The notes under the pieces: generated by a model
What the model saw: only the letters and a program-made list of their open reading frames with translations
What the model was told of the DNA's origin: nothing
The model's database searches: none
Program-made: the position numbers and the translations under genes
Virus record (IMG/VR): IMGVR_UViG_3300010885_023067
Coordinates: 1-32,418 of that record
Reading direction: 5' to 3' (one strand)
From: a virus
DNA length: 32,418 bases
Shown: positions 9,595 through 31,645 of the stretch, piece after piece
Layout: every line of letters starts with the position of its first letter
How positions within the stretch are numbered: the first letter of the stretch is position 1

Positions 9595-11328
9595 CTAGTT
9601 ACTCATAGTAAGCACATTAACAATTTCCTCAAGGCCCGTAATCATCCGCACAACCCGAAGAATCGGATTCACATTGCGCTTACCATTACCAACAATGCAC
9701 TCCACCTGGGCACGAGACTTACGATCATCCTTCAACTTCACCTGATACACATAATCCGTATACAGCTTCCCGGCCAACGCGAAAGACACCAAGCCACCCA
9801 AGAACACATCCTTACCAATGGTGTACGGCTTGCCGTTCTGCCACGTCAACTCAATGCAGTTATATCCCTGAGTATCAAACATCGCCTGCATCAACGCGAA
9901 CCATTCATCCAACGTATAAGCCGACGCCCCAGTGCGCGTAAAATATTCGGGGAAACCATACGGCCCCAAATCCACGCGGCGCTGCTCATTTTGCGTTTCC
10001 TGAAACGCCAAAATTATGTCCGCAAAACTGCCGTTCAGGAGGGTATCTGGAATTCCGGTAAATCCGATAATGATCTCAATGGAATCAATCAAAAATTCCA
10101 AAGTAGCATTAATCAAATCGTCCAACCACTGCGGACTTTTCCCACCCCCGATGCAGGTATAGGCAATGGGGTGATAGCCACTTAACTTGAAATTTAACAA
10201 ACCCGTACCATTGTTGATGTTATTGCCATCAAACAACACCCACGGCGCCACAAAGTTAATACCCAACGCCGGCGCAATATTGATACCGAGGTTCGTCGGA
10301 TAATACTGATTCCGCGATTGCAAGAAAGGCGACAAACTCAAACCCATCACACTGTTCGACAAATCAACAGTGGACTTGATTAAACCATCAATGAACGTCC
10401 CAGTAGGCCCGGTCACACCACTACGATCCACGCAGTTCACCAAAATGGTCGGAGCCGACAGTGGAATAGGGAACGGCAAAAACGACACACCCATACTTTG
10501 CGTTGCTGGTTGAGGATCACCCGGCAACCACAAATTCGCCGTCAACGACAACCCGTAATACAACAAAATGTCCTTGATAACATCAAAGATTTTATCCATA
10601 CGGGCCGTATAGGCAACCCACGGCGAAGCATCAAACAACGGGTCCACAAACTGAACCATCATCGGCGTCATCAACATCTGAATCAAATTACCGTTCGACT
10701 CCAAAATGGTGCCAAACCACGCCTGCCAATGAAAATTCAACGAACCAAGATTATTGACCATCTCCCAAATGCCCGACTGCAAACGAAAAGTCTGCTCCGC
10801 AATCATCGTAAGAATACAAGTAATCGCAGGACCCACAAAAATAGCGTTCTTCGGGAACTGAATCTCAATAGGCAGAAACGCATTAGGCCACACAAGGATA
10901 CGAGAAAACCAAGTGAAATCATCCACACATGATGCAGTAAACGAGGTAACCCTATTGTCCAAAGCGTAAGCATAAGAATTAACCCGGCCAGACCAGCGGA
11001 GATTGGCACCCACCTGAATCGTCACCGGAACCGTCTGCGACGTACACTCCATAATGTACGGAACCAACGAATCAGTGGCCTTCAAAACAATCTGCGCGGA
11101 CCCCATATCGTTGCGTTTCCACTCAGCTTCAACGCTAATATAATCGGAGGACTCACCAATCGGATTATAAAACTTGTCATAAAACGTCACCACAACTTCA
11201 TCGTGAGGATTCTGCACAGCCTGAGCGGCCTGCCAGGCAGCCGCAGACGCCATCTCAGGATACGAATGCAACGCCGGCAACAAGTTCGCCGGATCAGTGA
11301 AATCCCCACTCAACCCTAAAGAGGCCAT
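9595..11328 (-). CDS. Minor tail / baseplate protein (Gp37-like)
   Basis: 577 residues, second gene after the tape measure. The N-terminal part (VVVTFYDKFYNPIGE, VEAEWKRNDMGSAQIVLKATD, VGANLRWSGRVNSYAYAL) matches the opening beta-domain of tail-hub proteins, where a field-and-tilt style VPVTIQVG strand precedes a RWSGRV strand. The C-terminal part includes YTIGKDVFLGGLVSFALAGK and LKDDRKSRAQVECIVGNGK, resembling the siphovirus ReqiPepy6 Gp37-like group of actinobacteriophages. It likely forms the tail tip hub with the Dit-like protein. ATG at 11328 overlaps the upstream gene by 13 bases. Confidence 0.82.
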   Translation of the reverse strand: MASLGLSGDFTDPANLLPALHSYPEMASAAAWQAAQAVQNPHDEVVVTFYDKFYNPIGESSDYISVEAEWKRNDMGSAQIVLKATDSLVPYIMECTSQTVPVTIQVGANLRWSGRVNSYAYALDNRVTSFTASCVDDFTWFSRILVWPNAFLPIEIQFPKNAIFVGPAITCILTMIAEQTFRLQSGIWEMVNNLGSLNFHWQAWFGTILESNGNLIQMLMTPMMVQFVDPLFDASPWVAYTARMDKIFDVIKDILLYYGLSLTANLWLPGDPQPATQSMGVSFLPFPIPLSAPTILVNCVDRSGVTGPTGTFIDGLIKSTVDLSNSVMGLSLSPFLQSRNQYYPTNLGINIAPALGINFVAPWVLFDGNNINNGTGLLNFKLSGYHPIAYTCIGGGKSPQWLDDLINATLEFLIDSIEIIIGFTGIPDTLLNGSFADIILAFQETQNEQRRVDLGPYGFPEYFTRTGASAYTLDEWFALMQAMFDTQGYNCIELTWQNGKPYTIGKDVFLGGLVSFALAGKLYTDYVYQVKLKDDRKSRAQVECIVGNGKRNVNPILRVVRMITGLEEIVNVLTMSN

Positions 11329-12992
11329 TTTCGCATCGGCGTAATAGAAGCAACAAGATTCGTCTGAGCGTTACCACCAGACACCGTCACATAAATATGC
11401 TCAGTCGGCGGCTGAACACCATACGAAGCCGGGGGAATCGGCACAGTAAACCTTCCACTCAACAAAGAATACAAGTTACCCTGCGGCGCCTGAATGCCCA
11501 ACAAAGACTCAAACTGCTGCAAAAGGGGAGGAACATTATTGTTCGTCGCAAACGAAATCAACTGCTTAAAAAATTGCTGAAAAACATTCAACTGCTGCGG
11601 CGGCTGACCCGGCGACAAATCCACCACCGACCGATACTGCGGATGCGTAGTCACCAACACAACCTGCCCAGGCAACAAAGGCCCAAACGAAATCATGTTC
11701 CCCGAACCCGGCCCATTATTGAACGAAAACGTCCCAGGCCCGTAACACAAATACCTAGGCCAAGCCGGCTGGTCACCGAAATTAGTTAAATTAATCCAAC
11801 CAGACTGCGTCACCGTATTATTGTCCGCGCCGCTAAACGCCTGAATCGGAGGGGGAATGATAGCATTCCCAGCTATCGCATTCGTCTGAACACCAAAACC
11901 CATGTACTTGTTACCCAAGTTACTGCGATTAGCCGAATCAGTATAATCCGCCACCGTGAAACCATTACGCTGAATGACATACTGATACGGGCTGGCTGCC
12001 GTCCCAGCAATCAACGTCCACAAATCATTCGTCGCCGGCGGCACCAAAATCGGCACCGTCAACACAGTAGCGGAACCAGACGCATTCTTAATGGTCAAAC
12101 TAAACGACGCCAAACCCACACTCAACACAGCATACTGCGACCCCGCAGCGTTCAACCGCGCATACACCGTAAACGAAGCACCAGGGTCAACGAAATTGAA
12201 CAAGTTATATGCAGTGGGTGGCGCCAACTTCACCGACACCACCTGATTCGCAGTGTTCGTCTGCGTCTTACTGATATTCAACGCAGACACAGGCGTAGCC
12301 GTACCCGCAGGAATGAATCTCGCCGCACCATACTGGACACCGTAAGTACCGTGACCAGTAGGAGAAACAATCTGCGTCCACTTAGACGAATCCAACGTCG
12401 AAGCGTTACCTTCGTTGAAAAACAACTCCTGCACAAAATTATAGGACGCGGCAAAAGAACAAGTCGAATCAATCCCATGCCAAAACGCATCATAATTTTT
12501 AGCAGACCAAGTGAACGCCTGCCTACCCGACCAAGTGTAATTCTTACTGAACTCGTCGGTGATGTTCTTAGCTTGACGAACGGAACACCACCACTCGCCC
12601 ATATCGGGAGTGAACACGCTCAACGTACCGGCGGTGCGGAAATCCCACGCACTGATCCACGCCCGCATCGTATCCCTAGTCTCCTGCGGGGAAAGACCAG
12701 ACAACTCCAAGCCCAACATAATCTCAGCCGGATCATACACAGCGGCCTGCCACGTCGCACCGTCCTGACGTGCGCCCTTCTGATCAATCATGTCCGCGTT
12801 CGCCATCAGGCCCATGAACTTCTTAACAACCATACCGTTCTGCGCCCCAGCAATCGGCGCCAACGGACCAGTCAAATACCAAATGCTGCCGTCGATACCG
12901 ATGTAGCTGATCCACGTCGATTGATTCAGCAACGCCTCATTGATACCCCACTGAGAAATCGGGCCAGGAGGATAAGTGATAGGTGTAGTCAA
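11316..12992 (-). CDS. Dit-like distal tail protein with a carbohydrate-binding-like insert
   Basis: 558 residues, first minus-strand gene after the tape measure. Residues 1 to about 175 look like the N-terminal domain of actinophage distal tail proteins (GIDGSIWYLTGPLAP, DWQAAVY-like strand near TWQAAVYDPAEIMLGLE, TPDMGEWWCSVRQAKN). Residues about 190-390 form an added concanavalin/laminin-G-like domain (TLDSSKWTQI, YAVLSVGLASFSLTIKN, YQYVIQRNGFTVADYTD, KYMGFGVQ). The remainder carries a second tail-type beta domain (GDQPAWPRYLCYGPGTFSF). Start is TTG at 12992 with GAGGGAAGG upstream. This is an 'evolved Dit' that could contact cell-wall glycans. The promoter of the plus-strand DUF732 gene overlaps its translation start region. 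Confidence 0.82.
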   Translation of the reverse strand: MTTPITYPPGPISQWGINEALLNQSTWISYIGIDGSIWYLTGPLAPIAGAQNGMVVKKFMGLMANADMIDQKGARQDGATWQAAVYDPAEIMLGLELSGLSPQETRDTMRAWISAWDFRTAGTLSVFTPDMGEWWCSVRQAKNITDEFSKNYTWSGRQAFTWSAKNYDAFWHGIDSTCSFAASYNFVQELFFNEGNASTLDSSKWTQIVSPTGHGTYGVQYGAARFIPAGTATPVSALNISKTQTNTANQVVSVKLAPPTAYNLFNFVDPGASFTVYARLNAAGSQYAVLSVGLASFSLTIKNASGSATVLTVPILVPPATNDLWTLIAGTAASPYQYVIQRNGFTVADYTDSANRSNLGNKYMGFGVQTNAIAGNAIIPPPIQAFSGADNNTVTQSGWINLTNFGDQPAWPRYLCYGPGTFSFNNGPGSGNMISFGPLLPGQVVLVTTHPQYRSVVDLSPGQPPQQLNVFQQFFKQLISFATNNNVPPLLQQFESLLGIQAPQGNLYSLLSGRFTVPIPPASYGVQPPTEHIYVTVSGGNAQTNLVASITPMRKWPL

Positions 12993-13021
12993 CAGACCCT
13001 TCCCTCAAGTACAATAGAATC
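12988..13021 (+). promoter_or_regulatory. Promoter for a leaderless DUF732 mRNA
   Basis: TACAAT at 13010-13015 fits the mycobacterial SigA -10 consensus (TANNNT). The next six bases place a typical start site exactly at 13022, the A of the gene's ATG. A weak -35 candidate lies in AGTCAACA (12987-12994). No Shine-Dalgarno sequence precedes the ATG. Leaderless mRNAs are common and efficiently translated in mycobacteria. The element overlaps, on the other strand, the TTG start and ribosome-binding site of the Dit-like gene. Confidence 0.65.
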
Positions 13022-13513
13022 ATGGACGAAACAATGATCGGAAACATGCCCAACACAGACATAGTTCCGAAGCATGTGCAGGAAACAGACATGCTGCTGG
13101 CGTGGGCCTGCGACGAACAAGACGAAACCCCGACACGGTGGAAAGACGCCGCCCGCATCGCGGCCTGGTGCCTACTGCCGGCGCTCGCCACAGCCGCCGC
13201 CATCCTCATCGCAACACCCCACGAACACGCAACGGCGGTGACGGCAACCACCACAACAGTCACCGTCACCCCGCCAGCGCCCGAGGCGAAAGACGAAGCG
13301 TTCCTAGCCGCCCTACAAAAACACGGCATCCCCATAATCAACAAAGGAATCGCCATCGCAGACGGCCACATCCAATGCATGAACATGACACAAGCCGGAA
13401 CAACCTGGGGATACCAAGTAGAGTCGATCCTCAAAAGCAACGCCTTCAACCAAGATCAAGCCGCCCAGTTCCTCGTTCTATCAACCGACTTCTACTGCCC
13501 CAACGTCATCTAG
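13022..13513 (+). CDS. Membrane-anchored DUF732 protein (candidate lysogenic moron)
   Basis: 163 residues, the only convincing complete plus-strand gene. Residues 1-45 are polar and probably cytoplasmic, 46-64 are a single TM helix (IAAWCLLPALATAAAILIA), 65-92 are a Thr/Pro/Ala linker, and 93-163 match DUF732: EAFLAALQKHGIPI, a Cys in DGHIQCM (Cys119), NQDQAAQFLVLSTDFYCP (Cys159). The two Cys are likely disulfide-bonded outside the membrane. DUF732 proteins are abundant small secreted or anchored proteins of mycobacteria with unknown function. The gene lies antisense inside the late operon, has its own promoter-like element, and shares the CTAG at 13510-13513 with the tape-measure stop. It lacks its own terminator. 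Its plus-strand codons end mostly in A or C like the surrounding plus strand, which suggests long residence here. Likely roles: superinfection exclusion or altering the lysogen surface (inference). Confidence 0.88.
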   Translation: MDETMIGNMPNTDIVPKHVQETDMLLAWACDEQDETPTRWKDAARIAAWCLLPALATAAAILIATPHEHATAVTATTTTVTVTPPAPEAKDEAFLAALQKHGIPIINKGIAIADGHIQCMNMTQAGTTWGYQVESILKSNAFNQDQAAQFLVLSTDFYCPNVI

Positions 13514-16500
13514 CCCTGCCCATTGATGGGAATACCACCGAAGTTAGCCGCAGACAAAGCCTTCTCAAAGCCGTCCATCTGCTGCTGGGCATGATTATGC
13601 ACATCACCGTTAATGGTCACACCACCACCACCGTTAGGTTTAGCGGCCTTATCCAAATCGTCCTTAGGTGAAAGTTGCATCGCAGACTTACCCGCAGAAT
13701 TACCCGGGCTAGGATGCGCCCCAGCAATACCCAACGCCACCTTGCCGAACAAGCTGTTCGATGGGTCAGCAAGCGCAGAGTCATTCAAACTGAACGTCTG
13801 CATCAACCCCTCAAGGCCGATACCCACAAGCTGACCACCAAACCCGATAGCGCGGTTAAGCAACTGGAACGCAGACTGCGTAGCCATTGATCCAGCCGGC
13901 CCAGCCGGCGTAGCACCAGCCGCAGCAGTAATAGCCGATTCAGCCATCTGCATCAAACCACCACTGATGCCGAAACCTTTACTGGTGTTATTCATCCCAC
14001 CAGGCCGCGACGGGTTATCGGCAATATCCCGATCCCCCCCAGCGACAGGCACCGTACCCGGCTCCGTACCCGGCGCAACGAACTGCTCAGGCGGCTTATC
14101 ACCAGCAACCGGGGGAGCAACAACAACGGGCTTGCCCACTGGCGGCGTGGCCGGCAATGTGGAGTCCGGTTTCTTCCCCCCCGTTTTCCACCACGGGTTT
14201 TGATAAAGTTGCTTATACTCTGGCGTTTCAGTCTCCGGTGGCGTTTGTTTAATGTACTGCTGAACGCCAGCCGGATACTTACCAGGGTTGGCGGTGATTT
14301 CCTGCCGCCCAGCAGCATCAAGCGCACCGACCGTATTCGGCGGGTTAACCGTTGGCGGCGTCGGAATTATTGGTGGTTGACCAGAAGTACCGTCAAACCC
14401 GGGAATTACACCACCACGCGAAAATTCCTCTGGACCCTGCCGCTGGCCCAAATCCCCCATCCAAGGATCAGCCCAAGGATCGTGCATAAAATCGCCGGGG
14501 GTGCGACCATTGTAAAACGGTGCGCCATGATGCTCCGAATTATAAGTTCGGTCCCACCACTTTTGGCGACCCTCGTCAACAGCGTGCGCCCACCAGTTAG
14601 GTCGGAAACGGCTGCCGGTGGGGTCGGACGGTTGACCGGGGCCGTCGCCGGGAACATTCCCGCCCTCCGCATACCCCTTAACCACGCCGCCCTTAGAATA
14701 CCAATTATGGCCCTTCCAAAAAGCGGCAGCATTAGCCGGCGTACCATACCGATCAGAAATATACGACAACATCGCCTGAGCCTCAAGATACGCATTACCA
14801 GAATACGCACCCATCGCCCCATACTTATCATGCTCATGCCCCAAAAACTGGCCCAAACCATAAGCACCAGAAGAAGGATTCCGCGCATTCGGATTAAAGC
14901 CAGACTCATGCGACAAAATGAACTTCAAATCCTTAAACTGACCAGGCGGGAAACCCGACTCCAAATAAGCCCGCTCAATCGAAGCCATCGTACCATCAGA
15001 ACCACGCGGCTTCTTCAGCCCAAGCTCCTCATCATACTGCTGCTTCAACGCCTTATCGAAAGCCTTCTCGCCCTTCTCCTCGCCCTTCTCGCCCTTCAAA
15101 TTCAACTTCGCCGCATCATCAGACTCCTTGTCACGCGCCTCAAGCGACGTACCAGCAGCCTTCAAATACTTACCCCACGGGCTATACTTAGCCACACCAT
15201 CCGCGAAAGAAGAATACATCTTCGTCAAAGGATGATTCGACTCATCAAAGGGATTATCACTCTTACCGGAATTAATTTTATCCACAACCGAAGCGCCACC
15301 CAAAGCAGAAACAGCCTCAGGTGTCAAAATCCCCTCACCGCCACGCAACATCACCGGGTTATCCGCGTTCTGCACAAAACCCAAAAGCGAATCGCCACCC
15401 ATATCTGGATAACCCATCAACGGCTGACCGGGAACACCGCCGCTCTTGTAACCAACGATGCCGCCCCTAGCATGGGACGGCGGGCCTTGTTTCGGCCTAG
15501 GTATCCCCCAGCCGGGGTACGTTTCTTGGAAAGACGGAGTCTTTCGGGCGTAAGGATCAGGGCCATCAGTGATACCCAAATCGTGCCCAAGTTTACGAAA
15601 CGGCTTTGTAAGCTGATCAGGGATAGAATCGTGAAAAGTAGGAGTATCTAAACCGATGCTCTGAAGGGCGGATTCGGCAGGCCCAATCAGCGCAACAAAC
15701 CCACCAATTGTTCCCACCAGCCCCATAGCGGCACCAGCAGCAGCAGAAAACGCGCTGCCCGCAGCGCCAATCTCACCCGCAGCGGCCCCCCCTGCGGCAG
15801 CCAAGCCGTCAGCGGCGACACCAGTAGCGGCGAACTCAGTGCCGGCAGCAGAAATCTCACCCGCAGCAACGCCCTCCGCAGCCGCCAACTCGCTGCCGGC
15901 AACACCAGCAGCGGCGACCTCACCACCGGCAGTGCCGACCTCGCCGGCGGCGACACCCTCAGCAGCCGCCAACTCGCTGCCAGCGGTTCCGGCAGCAGCA
16001 ACCTGCCCGCCGGCAGTGCCGACCTCGCCCGCAGCGGCGCCCTCCGCAGCCGCCAACTCCTCAGCAGCCACACCAGCAGCCCCGACCTGAGTCGGCAGAC
16101 GATTAGACAAAAACTCGCCAACCGTCCGCGCACCATTCATCAAACTACTAAAAGGACCTTCCAAGTCTTTAAAAATATTCATCAATTTAGCGCCAGACCA
16201 GGCGACAGCAACACCAGAAATAGCCGCCAACAAAGCCTGCCCAGCCTCAGGCACTTTATCAAGAAAATCCATAAACCGATTGAGGCCACCCACCATTTTG
16301 CTAAACATCGGCAACAAATGCTGCCCAGCCTGCGCCTCTAACGACTCCAACGAAGCCGTAAACTTAAGCAACTTCTTCGCGGCGTCATCCATCGACTTCT
16401 CAAAATCGGCCTGCAACGCCTCAGGAGTCGCCGCCGCCCCAAACTCCTTCTCGCGTTGCTTATACTGGTCAAGCACCGGCTGCGAACCAGCAAGCATCAA

Positions 16501-18090
16501 CAAAGTGCGCCCACCCTCAGCGGTGCCAGCAGCCGCCTGAGCAGCCGCCGAAGCATTCATAATTTCGGGTTTATCACTCCGAATCGCAGAGTTAGGGCCA
16601 TGCAATTCCTTATTCTTCCGCAAATACTCGTCAATACGCGGAAAATCTTGATCAGTGATACCAGACGTATCAATATCACCGCCGCCCATCTCCCGCAGCT
16701 TTTTCTGACCATCAGGAGTGGTAAACATACTCCTAGCGCGGAACGGGCTAACCTCAGACTTCTCAAACGCCGGCAACGAAACAAGCTGCTGCGCCGCAGG
16801 CGACAACTTATCGAATTCTTCCTGCTGCTGTTCCTGAACCATCTGATTCTGGTAAGCCTCTTGCAAATGCAGATTGCCATCTGGTCCCAAATTCTTCGCA
16901 ATGGCATCCCGCACAAGCTGAAGCGTCCCAGCCAAACCATTCTGCGTAAAATCAGCGGAAAGCCCCTGAGGGTTCAACCCGATCTGACCTAAAAAATCGC
17001 CCTGCGGCTTTGTCGGACTTGCAAACTTCTTCAACAAATTAGTCAAGTTAGGGGCCGACTGCTGCGAAGTCTGACCAGTCTGAGACATCTGATCCAACGC
17101 CGCAAAAATCTCCACCGGGTCAATATTCATAGCCGAAGCCTGCGGCTCAATAGAATGCAGAGACTTCTCATAATCCTCCGCGCTACCCTTATTCCCGGCA
17201 TAACCACGCGACAACAACGCCGCAGCCTTCTCAACCGGAATACGATAGTCATGCGAAGTAGTCGAAACAGCCTGAATGGACTCCTCAAGAGAACCCGCGC
17301 CGCTGATACGGTTCAACATCGCAGAATTCCGCATCAAATCAACAGCAGCCTGCCCCTGATAATTCTTACCAGTGTTGTAATCTGTAGCCCGCGAAATCTG
17401 GCCGTAATTCTTCGCAAGCTCCTCAGGCTTAAAACCAGTCTGACGAGAAATATCCCACAAACTTTGCGTCATCACACGACGATCATCCGCCGAAATATGC
17501 TGCTGAGCCTGAATCTGATTTATTAAGTCATCAATCTTAACGTCGTGCTTCAGACCCTCACCCAAAAAAGCGCCCACACCGAACGTCGCGCCAGCGCCCA
17601 AAATGTTCTGGCCCCGCGTCATGCCGCCCCGGGTAGCCGGAACAACAGTCTCCCGACCACGATCCTCAGCGGCGTGCCGGCCACCAACAACCGTCGCACC
17701 ACGCGCCGCCTGAGCTTCCAACTGCGTGGCATTAGAAGCAGCAATCAAACGACTAGTGTTAGAAATCGCCGCATCAACCTCACGCTGAGCAGCCACCATA
17801 GAAGCAGAAGCAGCCTGAAACCCGCGCACACGCAAATCATTAATCCGCGACTCCGCGACCTGCAAATCAGCCAAACCGATCTGCATCTGCCGATACGCAT
17901 CATCCGACGCGGCAACCAACTTCTTAAACTGCGCCATCGCTGGGTCAAGCGTAAAACCCTCCGCGAAAGCAGCGGACGACCTCGCCCCGCCGTCCCGCAT
18001 CAGGCTTTGGGCCTCCCTCAAAGTGCGGTTAACAGAAGGAATGTTAAGCCGCGTCAAAATATCAAGAAAGATGCCACCCAGTTCAGCCAC
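13510..18090 (-). CDS. Tape measure protein with lytic transglycosylase domain
   Basis: 1526 residues. The N-terminus is typical (IFLDILTRLNIPSVNRTLREAQSLMRDGG), followed by long helical, Ala/Gln-rich stretches. Residues about 195-600 carry a phage tail tape-measure core, a hydrophobic patch (VPEAGQALLAAISGVAVAWSG) precedes four 28-residue Ala/Gly repeats (residues about 679-790), and residues about 1035-1130 look like a soluble lytic transglycosylase (HESGFNPNARNPSSGAYGLGQF, with Glu about 1061 as catalytic acid, then YLEAQAMLSYISDRYGT). The Pro/Gly-rich region after it is low complexity. At about 1.5 angstrom per residue the tail would be roughly 230 nm. Start is GTG at 18090, 5 bases after the chaperone stop, with a GGGGGG run upstream. 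The transglycosylase probably opens peptidoglycan during DNA entry. Confidence 0.95.
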   Translation of the reverse strand: MAELGGIFLDILTRLNIPSVNRTLREAQSLMRDGGARSSAAFAEGFTLDPAMAQFKKLVAASDDAYRQMQIGLADLQVAESRINDLRVRGFQAASASMVAAQREVDAAISNTSRLIAASNATQLEAQAARGATVVGGRHAAEDRGRETVVPATRGGMTRGQNILGAGATFGVGAFLGEGLKHDVKIDDLINQIQAQQHISADDRRVMTQSLWDISRQTGFKPEELAKNYGQISRATDYNTGKNYQGQAAVDLMRNSAMLNRISGAGSLEESIQAVSTTSHDYRIPVEKAAALLSRGYAGNKGSAEDYEKSLHSIEPQASAMNIDPVEIFAALDQMSQTGQTSQQSAPNLTNLLKKFASPTKPQGDFLGQIGLNPQGLSADFTQNGLAGTLQLVRDAIAKNLGPDGNLHLQEAYQNQMVQEQQQEEFDKLSPAAQQLVSLPAFEKSEVSPFRARSMFTTPDGQKKLREMGGGDIDTSGITDQDFPRIDEYLRKNKELHGPNSAIRSDKPEIMNASAAAQAAAGTAEGGRTLLMLAGSQPVLDQYKQREKEFGAAATPEALQADFEKSMDDAAKKLLKFTASLESLEAQAGQHLLPMFSKMVGGLNRFMDFLDKVPEAGQALLAAISGVAVAWSGAKLMNIFKDLEGPFSSLMNGARTVGEFLSNRLPTQVGAAGVAAEELAAAEGAAAGEVGTAGGQVAAAGTAGSELAAAEGVAAGEVGTAGGEVAAAGVAGSELAAAEGVAAGEISAAGTEFAATGVAADGLAAAGGAAAGEIGAAGSAFSAAAGAAMGLVGTIGGFVALIGPAESALQSIGLDTPTFHDSIPDQLTKPFRKLGHDLGITDGPDPYARKTPSFQETYPGWGIPRPKQGPPSHARGGIVGYKSGGVPGQPLMGYPDMGGDSLLGFVQNADNPVMLRGGEGILTPEAVSALGGASVVDKINSGKSDNPFDESNHPLTKMYSSFADGVAKYSPWGKYLKAAGTSLEARDKESDDAAKLNLKGEKGEEKGEKAFDKALKQQYDEELGLKKPRGSDGTMASIERAYLESGFPPGQFKDLKFILSHESGFNPNARNPSSGAYGLGQFLGHEHDKYGAMGAYSGNAYLEAQAMLSYISDRYGTPANAAAFWKGHNWYSKGGVVKGYAEGGNVPGDGPGQPSDPTGSRFRPNWWAHAVDEGRQKWWDRTYNSEHHGAPFYNGRTPGDFMHDPWADPWMGDLGQRQGPEEFSRGGVIPGFDGTSGQPPIIPTPPTVNPPNTVGALDAAGRQEITANPGKYPAGVQQYIKQTPPETETPEYKQLYQNPWWKTGGKKPDSTLPATPPVGKPVVVAPPVAGDKPPEQFVAPGTEPGTVPVAGGDRDIADNPSRPGGMNNTSKGFGISGGLMQMAESAITAAAGATPAGPAGSMATQSAFQLLNRAIGFGGQLVGIGLEGLMQTFSLNDSALADPSNSLFGKVALGIAGAHPSPGNSAGKSAMQLSPKDDLDKAAKPNGGGGVTINGDVHNHAQQQMDGFEKALSAANFGGIPINGQG
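15721..16056 (-). repeat. Four tandem 84-bp (28-residue) Ala/Gly repeats in the tape measure
   Basis: Four in-frame units of exactly 28 residues each begin LAAAEGAAAGEV, LAAAEGVAAGEV, LAAAEGVAAGEI and LAAAGGAAAGEI. The first two are nearly identical and the fourth is the most diverged. Each is built from AA, AG and GE steps likely to form helices with small side chains. Such units can be gained or lost by slippage and would change tail length in about 4 nm steps. Confidence 0.9.
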
Positions 18091-19965: not shown

Positions 19966-19992
19966 ATTATATTGTATTCCTTATCAAGTTTT

Positions 19993-30120: not shown

Positions 30121-30887
30121 CAGAGTCTCGCTCGCGGTACGGAAACAGGAATCTGCGCTGACGGCTCGTTGTAGAAAACCCCTCCGGGGATCAGCGGTAC
30201 GGCTACTGAAGCCCAGCCGTAGGTCGGCGTAGCCGAGCTAGTTGCGGTGACGGTCGATGACCCGTAGGACTGCCCGATAGCCATGAGTAGGTTCCCCGAC
30301 GAGTTAATCCATAACGGTATCTGGCTGTAGCTGGTGATGGAGGTTCCGGTGAGGGTGCCGAAGGCGGAGAACACCGTTTGGACGGGTGTCGCCGTCACGG
30401 TTTGCGACATGCTCGACGTTGCCCCGGTGTTGGTGACGGGGATTCCGAAACCGGACACGTTGTTGTATGTGAACGAGTTGAAGGTCACGGTGGCACCCGA
30501 GCCGCTGGACACGCCGACTCCGATGGTCTGGATTCCACTGGGTGGGTTCAGCATGCCCCACACATAGACTCCTGTGTAGCTGCGCCAGAGAAGCCCCCCC
30601 AACAAGGTCAGCGGAGTGGAACCGATCTGGGCCAACACGCCCGCCCCGTTGGTATAGGTGACATCGGCGGCCACTAGCAGGGCGCTGGTGCTGACCGGAA
30701 TATTATGAGTGATGTTGGCGTAAGCACTCGAACAGTTGGCGTTCGCAGTTCCCGACCCGAGCGACGTAAAAACGGGACGGGAACGAGCGAGCGCCGTCGT
30801 CGTGTATCCCAAACCAGCTTGATACGCGAAACTGCTTGGAACAGCCTGGGTGGACTGCGACGGGTATCCCCGTCCGACGACGGCCAT
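30120..30887 (-). CDS. Beta-rich surface protein B of a three-gene tandem family
   Basis: 255 residues. Begins MAVVGRGYPSQSTQ, has strand-like repeats (TSALLVAADVTYTNG, TLLGGLLWRSYTGVYVWGML, ATVTFNSFTYNNVSGFG) and ends VFYNEPSAQIPVSVPRARL. The FYNEPSA tail is shared with the gene before it, and 14 bp of DNA are identical there (30160-30173 and 30945-30958). Plus-strand G content is higher here (20 of 60 in 30241-30300) than in terminase (9 of 60 in 28861-28920), a sign of a different origin. ATG overlaps the upstream stop (TGATG). Probable receptor-contacting or decoration protein. Confidence 0.75.
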   Translation of the reverse strand: MAVVGRGYPSQSTQAVPSSFAYQAGLGYTTTALARSRPVFTSLGSGTANANCSSAYANITHNIPVSTSALLVAADVTYTNGAGVLAQIGSTPLTLLGGLLWRSYTGVYVWGMLNPPSGIQTIGVGVSSGSGATVTFNSFTYNNVSGFGIPVTNTGATSSMSQTVTATPVQTVFSAFGTLTGTSITSYSQIPLWINSSGNLLMAIGQSYGSSTVTATSSATPTYGWASVAVPLIPGGVFYNEPSAQIPVSVPRARL

Positions 30888-31645
30888 CAGAACAACCTGC
30901 TGCGGGTCATCATGGCGATGCTGGCTGGCGCTGGGGTCAAAGCAGACGGCTCGTTGTAAAACTTTTGGGTCGCCGGGGTGGCAGCGGGTATGACAGAAGG
31001 GTTAGGGTTTAGGACAACGCTAGTTGCGTACCACGGTAAACTGCCACTGAGTGTGGCCTGGAATGTTGTGTTGACCGGACCCAAGGCTTCACTTATCGCC
31101 AATGACGCGCCACCGAACGCTGCTGTTGCCCCAAAGAACCTGTTTGTACCACCGGACACCCCGGTCATCGTTACCCCACCGGAAAGCGCACTGTGTCCCA
31201 TGCCGCACACAGCCATTCCATTGACGGGAACCGAACTGGAGGTGACAGTATTGGAAGGAGATGTGCTTGTGCCACTAGTGTTGTTGATAACGCTAATAGT
31301 AGACACACCTGTGTAAGAAACTGCGCCCACATAACCCAGGTTGGCGCTGGCAGAATACGACACCGTAGGTGAAGAGCTAGCAATCCGAATAAACCAAACT
31401 TTTAGACTGCCGTTTGTAACCAGTAAATTAGGCGTCACGCCACCCACGGTGATCCCGAGCGTTGCCGGGGTACGGTCTGTGTCAACAAAAACAAGAACTG
31501 TTGACTTAGCTTTGGCTAAAAGGGTAAAGGAAGCGCCGTTGTTGAAGGTTGCGCCTGCGGCAGCATCAAACGCCACCTGAGAGGATTGTATTGTGGTTCC
31601 TTTATAAGCCAGGGGGATCGGGGTTCTGCGCCCGATACGCGCCAC
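30887..31645 (-). CDS. Beta-rich surface protein A of a three-gene tandem family
   Basis: 252 residues. Starts MARIGRRTPIPLAYKGTT and contains ASFTLLAKAKSTVLVFVDTD, TLGITVGGVTPNLLV, YVGAVSYTGVSTISVINNTSG, PVNGMAVCGMGHSAL, GVSGGTNRFFGATAAFGG, WYATSVVLNPNPS, and the FYNEPSA tail. The pattern of strand, glycine turn and strand is that of a beta-sandwich. Start GTG at 31645 follows the TGA of the upstream gene. The trio lies before the terminase, outside the tail region where such proteins normally sit. Function is inferred. Confidence 0.75.
   Translation of the reverse strand: MARIGRRTPIPLAYKGTTIQSSQVAFDAAAGATFNNGASFTLLAKAKSTVLVFVDTDRTPATLGITVGGVTPNLLVTNGSLKVWFIRIASSSPTVSYSASANLGYVGAVSYTGVSTISVINNTSGTSTSPSNTVTSSSVPVNGMAVCGMGHSALSGGVTMTGVSGGTNRFFGATAAFGGASLAISEALGPVNTTFQATLSGSLPWYATSVVLNPNPSVIPAATPATQKFYNEPSALTPAPASIAMMTRSRLF

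Follow-up and report, generated by a model that had tools for sequence, protein, structure and literature searches.

A reverse-strand gene for a predicted membrane-anchored DUF732 protein within a phage tail operon, and its possible expression from a prophage

The question raised by this locus is why the late tail operon of a mycobacterial phage should contain a complete gene in reverse orientation, and whether its product could be made when the late genes are off. The initial annotation of the window, which is the whole 32.4 kb stretch of viral DNA analysed here, had reported a DUF732 membrane gene opposite to the late operon, and this gene is confirmed to be present. Its neighbours are the tape-measure gene and the gene for a Dit-like minor tail protein (phrog_106, DUF7257), both of which are encoded on the other strand, and it takes up the whole space between them (Table 1). 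Late transcription had been expected to run antisense through it, and the gene is indeed antisense to the late mRNA; its overlap with coding sequence amounts to only 4 nt, in which the stop codons of the antisense and tape-measure genes share the tetranucleotide CTAG. Elsewhere in the window, phrog_553, a minor tail protein family, is matched by two genes (30123–31645, −) located upstream of the gene for the large terminase, an unusual position. In addition, TACAATATAAT is found at 19966–19990 (−), directly ahead of the start of the major tail protein gene and adjoining an AAGGA ribosome-binding site, and may be a promoter within the late operon.

Table 1. Features of the antisense gene and its surroundings, in window coordinates.
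Feature	Position	Strand	Basis
Antisense gene, TM-anchored DUF732 protein, 163 aa, ATG start	13022..13513	+	ORF and Pfam
Tape-measure protein gene	13510..18090	−	
Dit-like minor tail protein gene (phrog_106, DUF7257)	11316..12992	−	Profile matches
CTAG, overlapping stop codons of antisense and tape-measure genes	13510..13513	both	Likewise in L002 and L059
−35-like hexamer TAGTCA, 18-nt spacer, overlapping the first Dit codons	12986..12991	+	Promoter scan
Shine-Dalgarno-like GAGGGAAGGG of the Dit-like gene, within the antisense promoter spacer	12997..13006	−	
−10 element TACAAT, ending 6 nt before the ATG	13010..13015	+	Sequence and comparison with homologues
ATG and predicted transcription start (leaderless)	13022..13024	+	Spacing, no SD
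Predicted TM helix, residues 43–63	13148..13210	+	AlphaFold helix and hydropathy
DUF732 domain (PF05305), residues 90–161	13289..13504	+	Pfam on protein; HMM on DNA
Cys119 codon, conserved Cys pair	13376..13378	+	Alignment of homologues
Cys159 codon, conserved Cys pair, YCP motif	13496..13498	+	Alignment of homologues

The domain assignment and the single membrane helix proposed for the product both held. In a Pfam search the protein matched DUF732 with E=1.3e-12 and 48.3 bits (gathering cut-off 22.4 bits), and the cysteine pair belongs to a set of residues, C119, Y158, C159 and P160, that are invariant in 27/27 aligned sequences. Hydropathy peaks at 2.23 over residues 46–64, largely coinciding with the AlphaFold helix. 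The protein consists of a short N-terminal segment, the helix, a Thr/Pro-rich linker and the DUF732 domain, the last of which is modelled as four helices with high confidence and the N-terminal part with uncertainty. The product is predicted to sit in the inner membrane with its N-terminus inside, basic residues immediately preceding the helix, and with a helical, disulphide-bonded DUF732 domain outside.

Profile matches were obtained to phrog_658 (E=2.9e-11) and phrog_13315 (E=1.2e-5), and the top matches in a viral structure library were DUF732 proteins of other actinobacterial phages (best E=8.5e-4). Foldseek against the PDB returned nothing at E below 3, and no known anti-phage defence protein was matched among the PADLOC profiles. 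The best VIA-align match, AFV1 ORF132 (Z 6.2), was dismissed and no function drawn from it, since this score is typical of common helical bundles. The gene had no match among INPHARED phages, by DNA or by protein, and a search of IMG/VR with the antisense protein alone found no relative.

The start of the gene carries a −10 element placed for transcription to begin on the ATG, and an SD 4-mer is absent from positions −20 to −1, both as described in the initial annotation. TAGTCA and TACAAT together match 9/12 consensus bases, but the idea that this promoter stands above chance by itself was dropped, one site being found against 0.5 expected per kb. TANNNT at exactly this 6-nt spacing precedes only 6 of the 909 ATGs of the window. 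The element is nevertheless held to be above chance because all 13 homologous genes have a TANNNT ending 6 or 7 nt ahead of the start codon, whereas the background rate over these sequences is 1.4% (50 of 3608 ATGs). The 13 genes represent 12 distinct upstream sequences and include the three tail-junction genes described below; being related to one another, they do not count as independent cases, and in Phayonce and L085 the start was picked from two in-frame possibilities. None of the 13 has an SD 4-mer within 20 nt of its start. By this comparison with relatives, a leaderless start and a promoter of the host (sigma-A-like) type are well supported, and transcription would be predicted to start on the A of the ATG. 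This agrees with what is established for mycobacteria, as 79% of M. smegmatis promoters have ANNNT between −13 and −6, of which 63% are TANNNT (PMC6448022, PMC4633059), and about a quarter of mycobacterial mRNAs are leaderless, a 5′ ATG being sufficient (PMC4633059, PMC6448022). With the predicted start on the A of the ATG, the mRNA would therefore be leaderless and could be translated directly by a mycobacterial host. A group of M. abscessus prophage genes differs, in that the −10 element (TAGAAT or TAAAAT) is followed by a short leader with a GGGAGGG SD, and these are not leaderless.

The promoter had also been said to overlap the start of the Dit-like gene. This is so for the −35-like hexamer, but not for TACAAT, which lies outside the Dit-like gene. 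Given that the hexamer falls in the Dit start region and the Dit SD within the promoter spacer, polymerase at this site could hinder late transcription, and vice versa. A hexamer resembling TAGTCA is found 17–18 nt from the −10 element in both of the closest relatives, a likeness for which the Dit start codon is in part responsible.

Relatives were found with the Dit-like protein as query, the two closest, at 51–52% identity, being a metagenomic phage contig (L059) and a prophage region of M. colombiense GF28 (L002/L003). In each, the tape-measure/Dit-like junction holds a gene for an anchored protein in antisense orientation, with the same CTAG stop overlap and with TANNNT 6 nt before the ATG (TATGCT and TATTGT, respectively). 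Behind an AWS motif and a TM helix, the L059 protein has three DUF732 domains, whilst in the M. colombiense protein an AWS motif and a TM helix are followed by a sensor domain of the PknI/Rv2253 type (NF052447, with E=6.4e-13 and a score exceeding the cut-off). DUF732 was not found in the latter, nor was there significant BLASTP similarity between it and the window protein, and a search of solved structures by sequence with the two relatives' proteins gave no useful match.

Further away, the junction is empty, with the tape-measure and Dit-like genes overlapping or within about 40 bp, in L004–L008 and likewise in Wiggin, GUmbie, Charlie, Phayonce, MadKillah and Ritam007, and most remoter relatives are without an antisense insertion here. 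The exceptions are a codirectional gene in L040 and two antisense endonucleases, which share with the window gene their strand and junction but differ from it in product, that of the window being a predicted surface protein. One is a NUMOD4/HNH_3 endonuclease (L029:638–1432, −), with TACCAT 7 nt before its ATG, and the other is endonuclease VII, Thibault gp31 (L122:381–1358, −), which has an SD. The finding of antisense genes, endonucleases or nothing at this position suggests that the junction is an insertion-tolerant slot, and homing endonucleases may help to open it. With other outer domains at the same spot in the two nearest relatives, it looks like a slot that lets dormant phages alter the host cell surface. 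In one genome (G190, L023 around 1492), the Dit-like match sits in a 1967-aa open frame extending upstream, a possible tape-measure/Dit fusion.

Anchored DUF732 genes of temperate phages are also found away from tail operons. TChen gp43, Phayonce gp31, Purky gp33 and Henu3 gp41 (phrog_658/phrog_13315) share with the window gene the order AW[SA], TM helix, Pro/Thr linker and DUF732, as well as a TANNNT 6–7 nt before the ATG and no SD. Unlike the window gene, which is inside the tail operon, they are next to the integrase and repressor genes and share the repressor's strand, and those of M. abscessus prophages also adjoin the integrase. Among the M. abscessus prophages L067, L071, L112 and L113, the first ~75 residues are 84–92% identical, whereas the outer domains are 24–39% identical; between Henu3 and L085 the anchor is 66% and the outer domain 38% identical, and between L085 and L112 the order is reversed (outer domain 49%, anchor 38%). 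Sequence comparison thus indicates, for two phage groups, retention of the anchor with exchange of the outer domain. The window anchor has an AWA motif and a TM helix positioned as in other phage anchors, and an HMM of those anchors scored L059 at E=1e-6, L002 at a borderline value and the N-terminal segment of the window protein not above shuffled sequence. The DUF732 alignment itself was too diverged to serve for a contig scan. In L112, L072, L073, L085, L088 and L090, anchors of a similar kind are followed not by DUF732 but by an unnamed domain, also exported (GKTxC...ALGWTITPT...GMTVSVE), which matched no Pfam or NCBIfam family above cut-off among the proteins tested.

No match to an integrase, a resolvase or HTH_3 was found in the window record, which is possibly a fragment, and its temperate nature is therefore judged from one relative: the M. 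colombiense prophage region encodes a tyrosine integrase, on the same strand as its antisense gene, so that the window phage may be temperate as well. Expression from a prophage, which the initial annotation had put forward, is favoured indirectly by this integrase, by the homologues that lie on the repressor strand by an integrase and by published cases of reverse-strand genes expressed in lysogeny, and the lack of an integrase in the window record counts against it. Adephagia gene 40, a reverse-strand surface lipoprotein gene, is expressed in lysogeny (PMC11373665), and so are toxin-antitoxin pairs on the opposite strand of M. abscessus prophages (PMC8092301). By analogy, transcription from the antisense promoter in a lysogen, followed by leaderless translation, would be expected.

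It is considered probable, with moderate confidence, that the antisense gene is a self-promoted, leaderless surface moron expressed in lysogeny. The moron would be a cargo gene placed in reverse at the insertion-tolerant junction, using its own promoter, and its protein, made from the prophage while the late genes are off, would alter the envelope of the lysogen. Weighing against this reading are the failure of the anchor HMM to recover the window N-terminus, the DUF732 proteins of phages generally considered lytic, the lack of a match to known defence proteins and the SD-bearing leader of the M. abscessus homologues. What the phage would gain is speculative; exclusion of competing phages is possible, though doubtful, and altered envelope sensing by the host is slightly more doubtful still. 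In the literature searched, the only functional datum for a phage DUF732 protein was that Troll4 gp76 (cluster D) is toxic on overexpression, with a toxicity index of 4/5 (PMC7474061).

That toxicity would also suit a gene that acts during lytic infection, on the envelope or on a second phage, from the same or an early promoter and with no role in lysogeny. Bxz1 and Wildcat, generally considered lytic phages, do encode DUF732 proteins, and the window record is without an integrase; such a role is nonetheless rated unlikely, as the gene points against the late operon, temperate phages have its homologues next to the integrase and on the strand of the repressor, and the M. colombiense relative carries an integrase. 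Quite improbable is a passenger gene, a mycobacterial DUF732 gene recently captured at a junction opened by an endonuclease and without a selected phage function. Host DUF732 genes are plentiful (27 matches in one M. colombiense assembly) and endonucleases occupy the junction in Thibault and L029, but the ORF is intact, the start and stop architecture is conserved in three divergent phages, and the closest host homologues are only about 30–38% identical, which argues against recent capture from a sampled host.

The overlap of the −35-like hexamer with the Dit start, the Dit SD in the spacer and the lack of a clear terminator on the + strand downstream of the gene would suit a mainly regulatory locus, in which the promoter interferes with the Dit start, or antisense RNA with the tape-measure 3′ end, to tune late tail genes and the protein is secondary. 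This is less probable again, given that the protein domain is conserved (Pfam, Cys pair), that relatives keep the protein layout and exchange its domain, and that most of them have no antisense promoter at the junction. The least likely explanation is that transcription is leadered from a promoter further upstream and TACAAT is a chance match; the promoter taken as a single site is not above expectation, but the shared −10 spacing of all the homologous genes, set against its rarity in the background, speaks strongly against this.

Phage morons, or lysogenic conversion genes, are well known from lambda lom and bor. The antisense gene resembles these in standing alone as cargo among late genes, in having a promoter of its own and in specifying an envelope protein; unlike them, it is reverse-oriented and leaderless, its lysogenic expression is a prediction, and its outer domain is DUF732 (a kinase-sensor domain in the M. 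colombiense relative). Closer to it in orientation is gene 40 of Adephagia (cluster K), a reverse-strand mycobacteriophage surface gene whose expression in the lysogen extends antisense to neighbouring genes (PMC11373665), although this gene encodes an LprJ-like lipoprotein rather than DUF732 and is near the integrase rather than in the tail operon. Some mycobacteriophage genes shield the host cell against other phages, among them Fruitloop gp52, Sbash gp30/31 and Butters gp30/31 (PMC7474061, PMC6426596, PMC7542560), and a membrane protein is part of the systems of Sbash and Butters (PMC6426596, PMC7542560), as predicted for the antisense product, but these exclusion proteins are unrelated to DUF732. 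Taken singly, morons, leaderless genes and DUF732 proteins of phages are already known. No account of a reverse tail-operon slot that combines a conserved leaderless start with exchangeable outer domains of host type was found in the literature searched, which covered few subscription journals.

DUF732 is a heavily duplicated mycobacterial domain of unknown function that is common in actinobacterial phages. Tentatively, and with rather low confidence, temperate mycobacteriophages may encode a class of modular anchored surface proteins, leaderless and made by lysogens, in which a conserved cytoplasmic and TM anchor with its start region would be joined to interchangeable outer domains of host families (one to three DUF732 domains, the PknI/Rv2253 kinase-sensor domain or the unnamed GWTITPT domain). 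The outer domains would be exchanged under selection, and the proteins would serve as decoys for, or dominant partners of, the envelope sensors of the host or the receptors of phages. The findings here mean that surface genes can sit antisense within structural operons, and that an anchor, a swappable outer domain and a leaderless start, whether the gene shares the repressor's strand or occupies a reversed position in the tail operon, form a testable candidate for the remodelling of the mycobacterial envelope by prophages.
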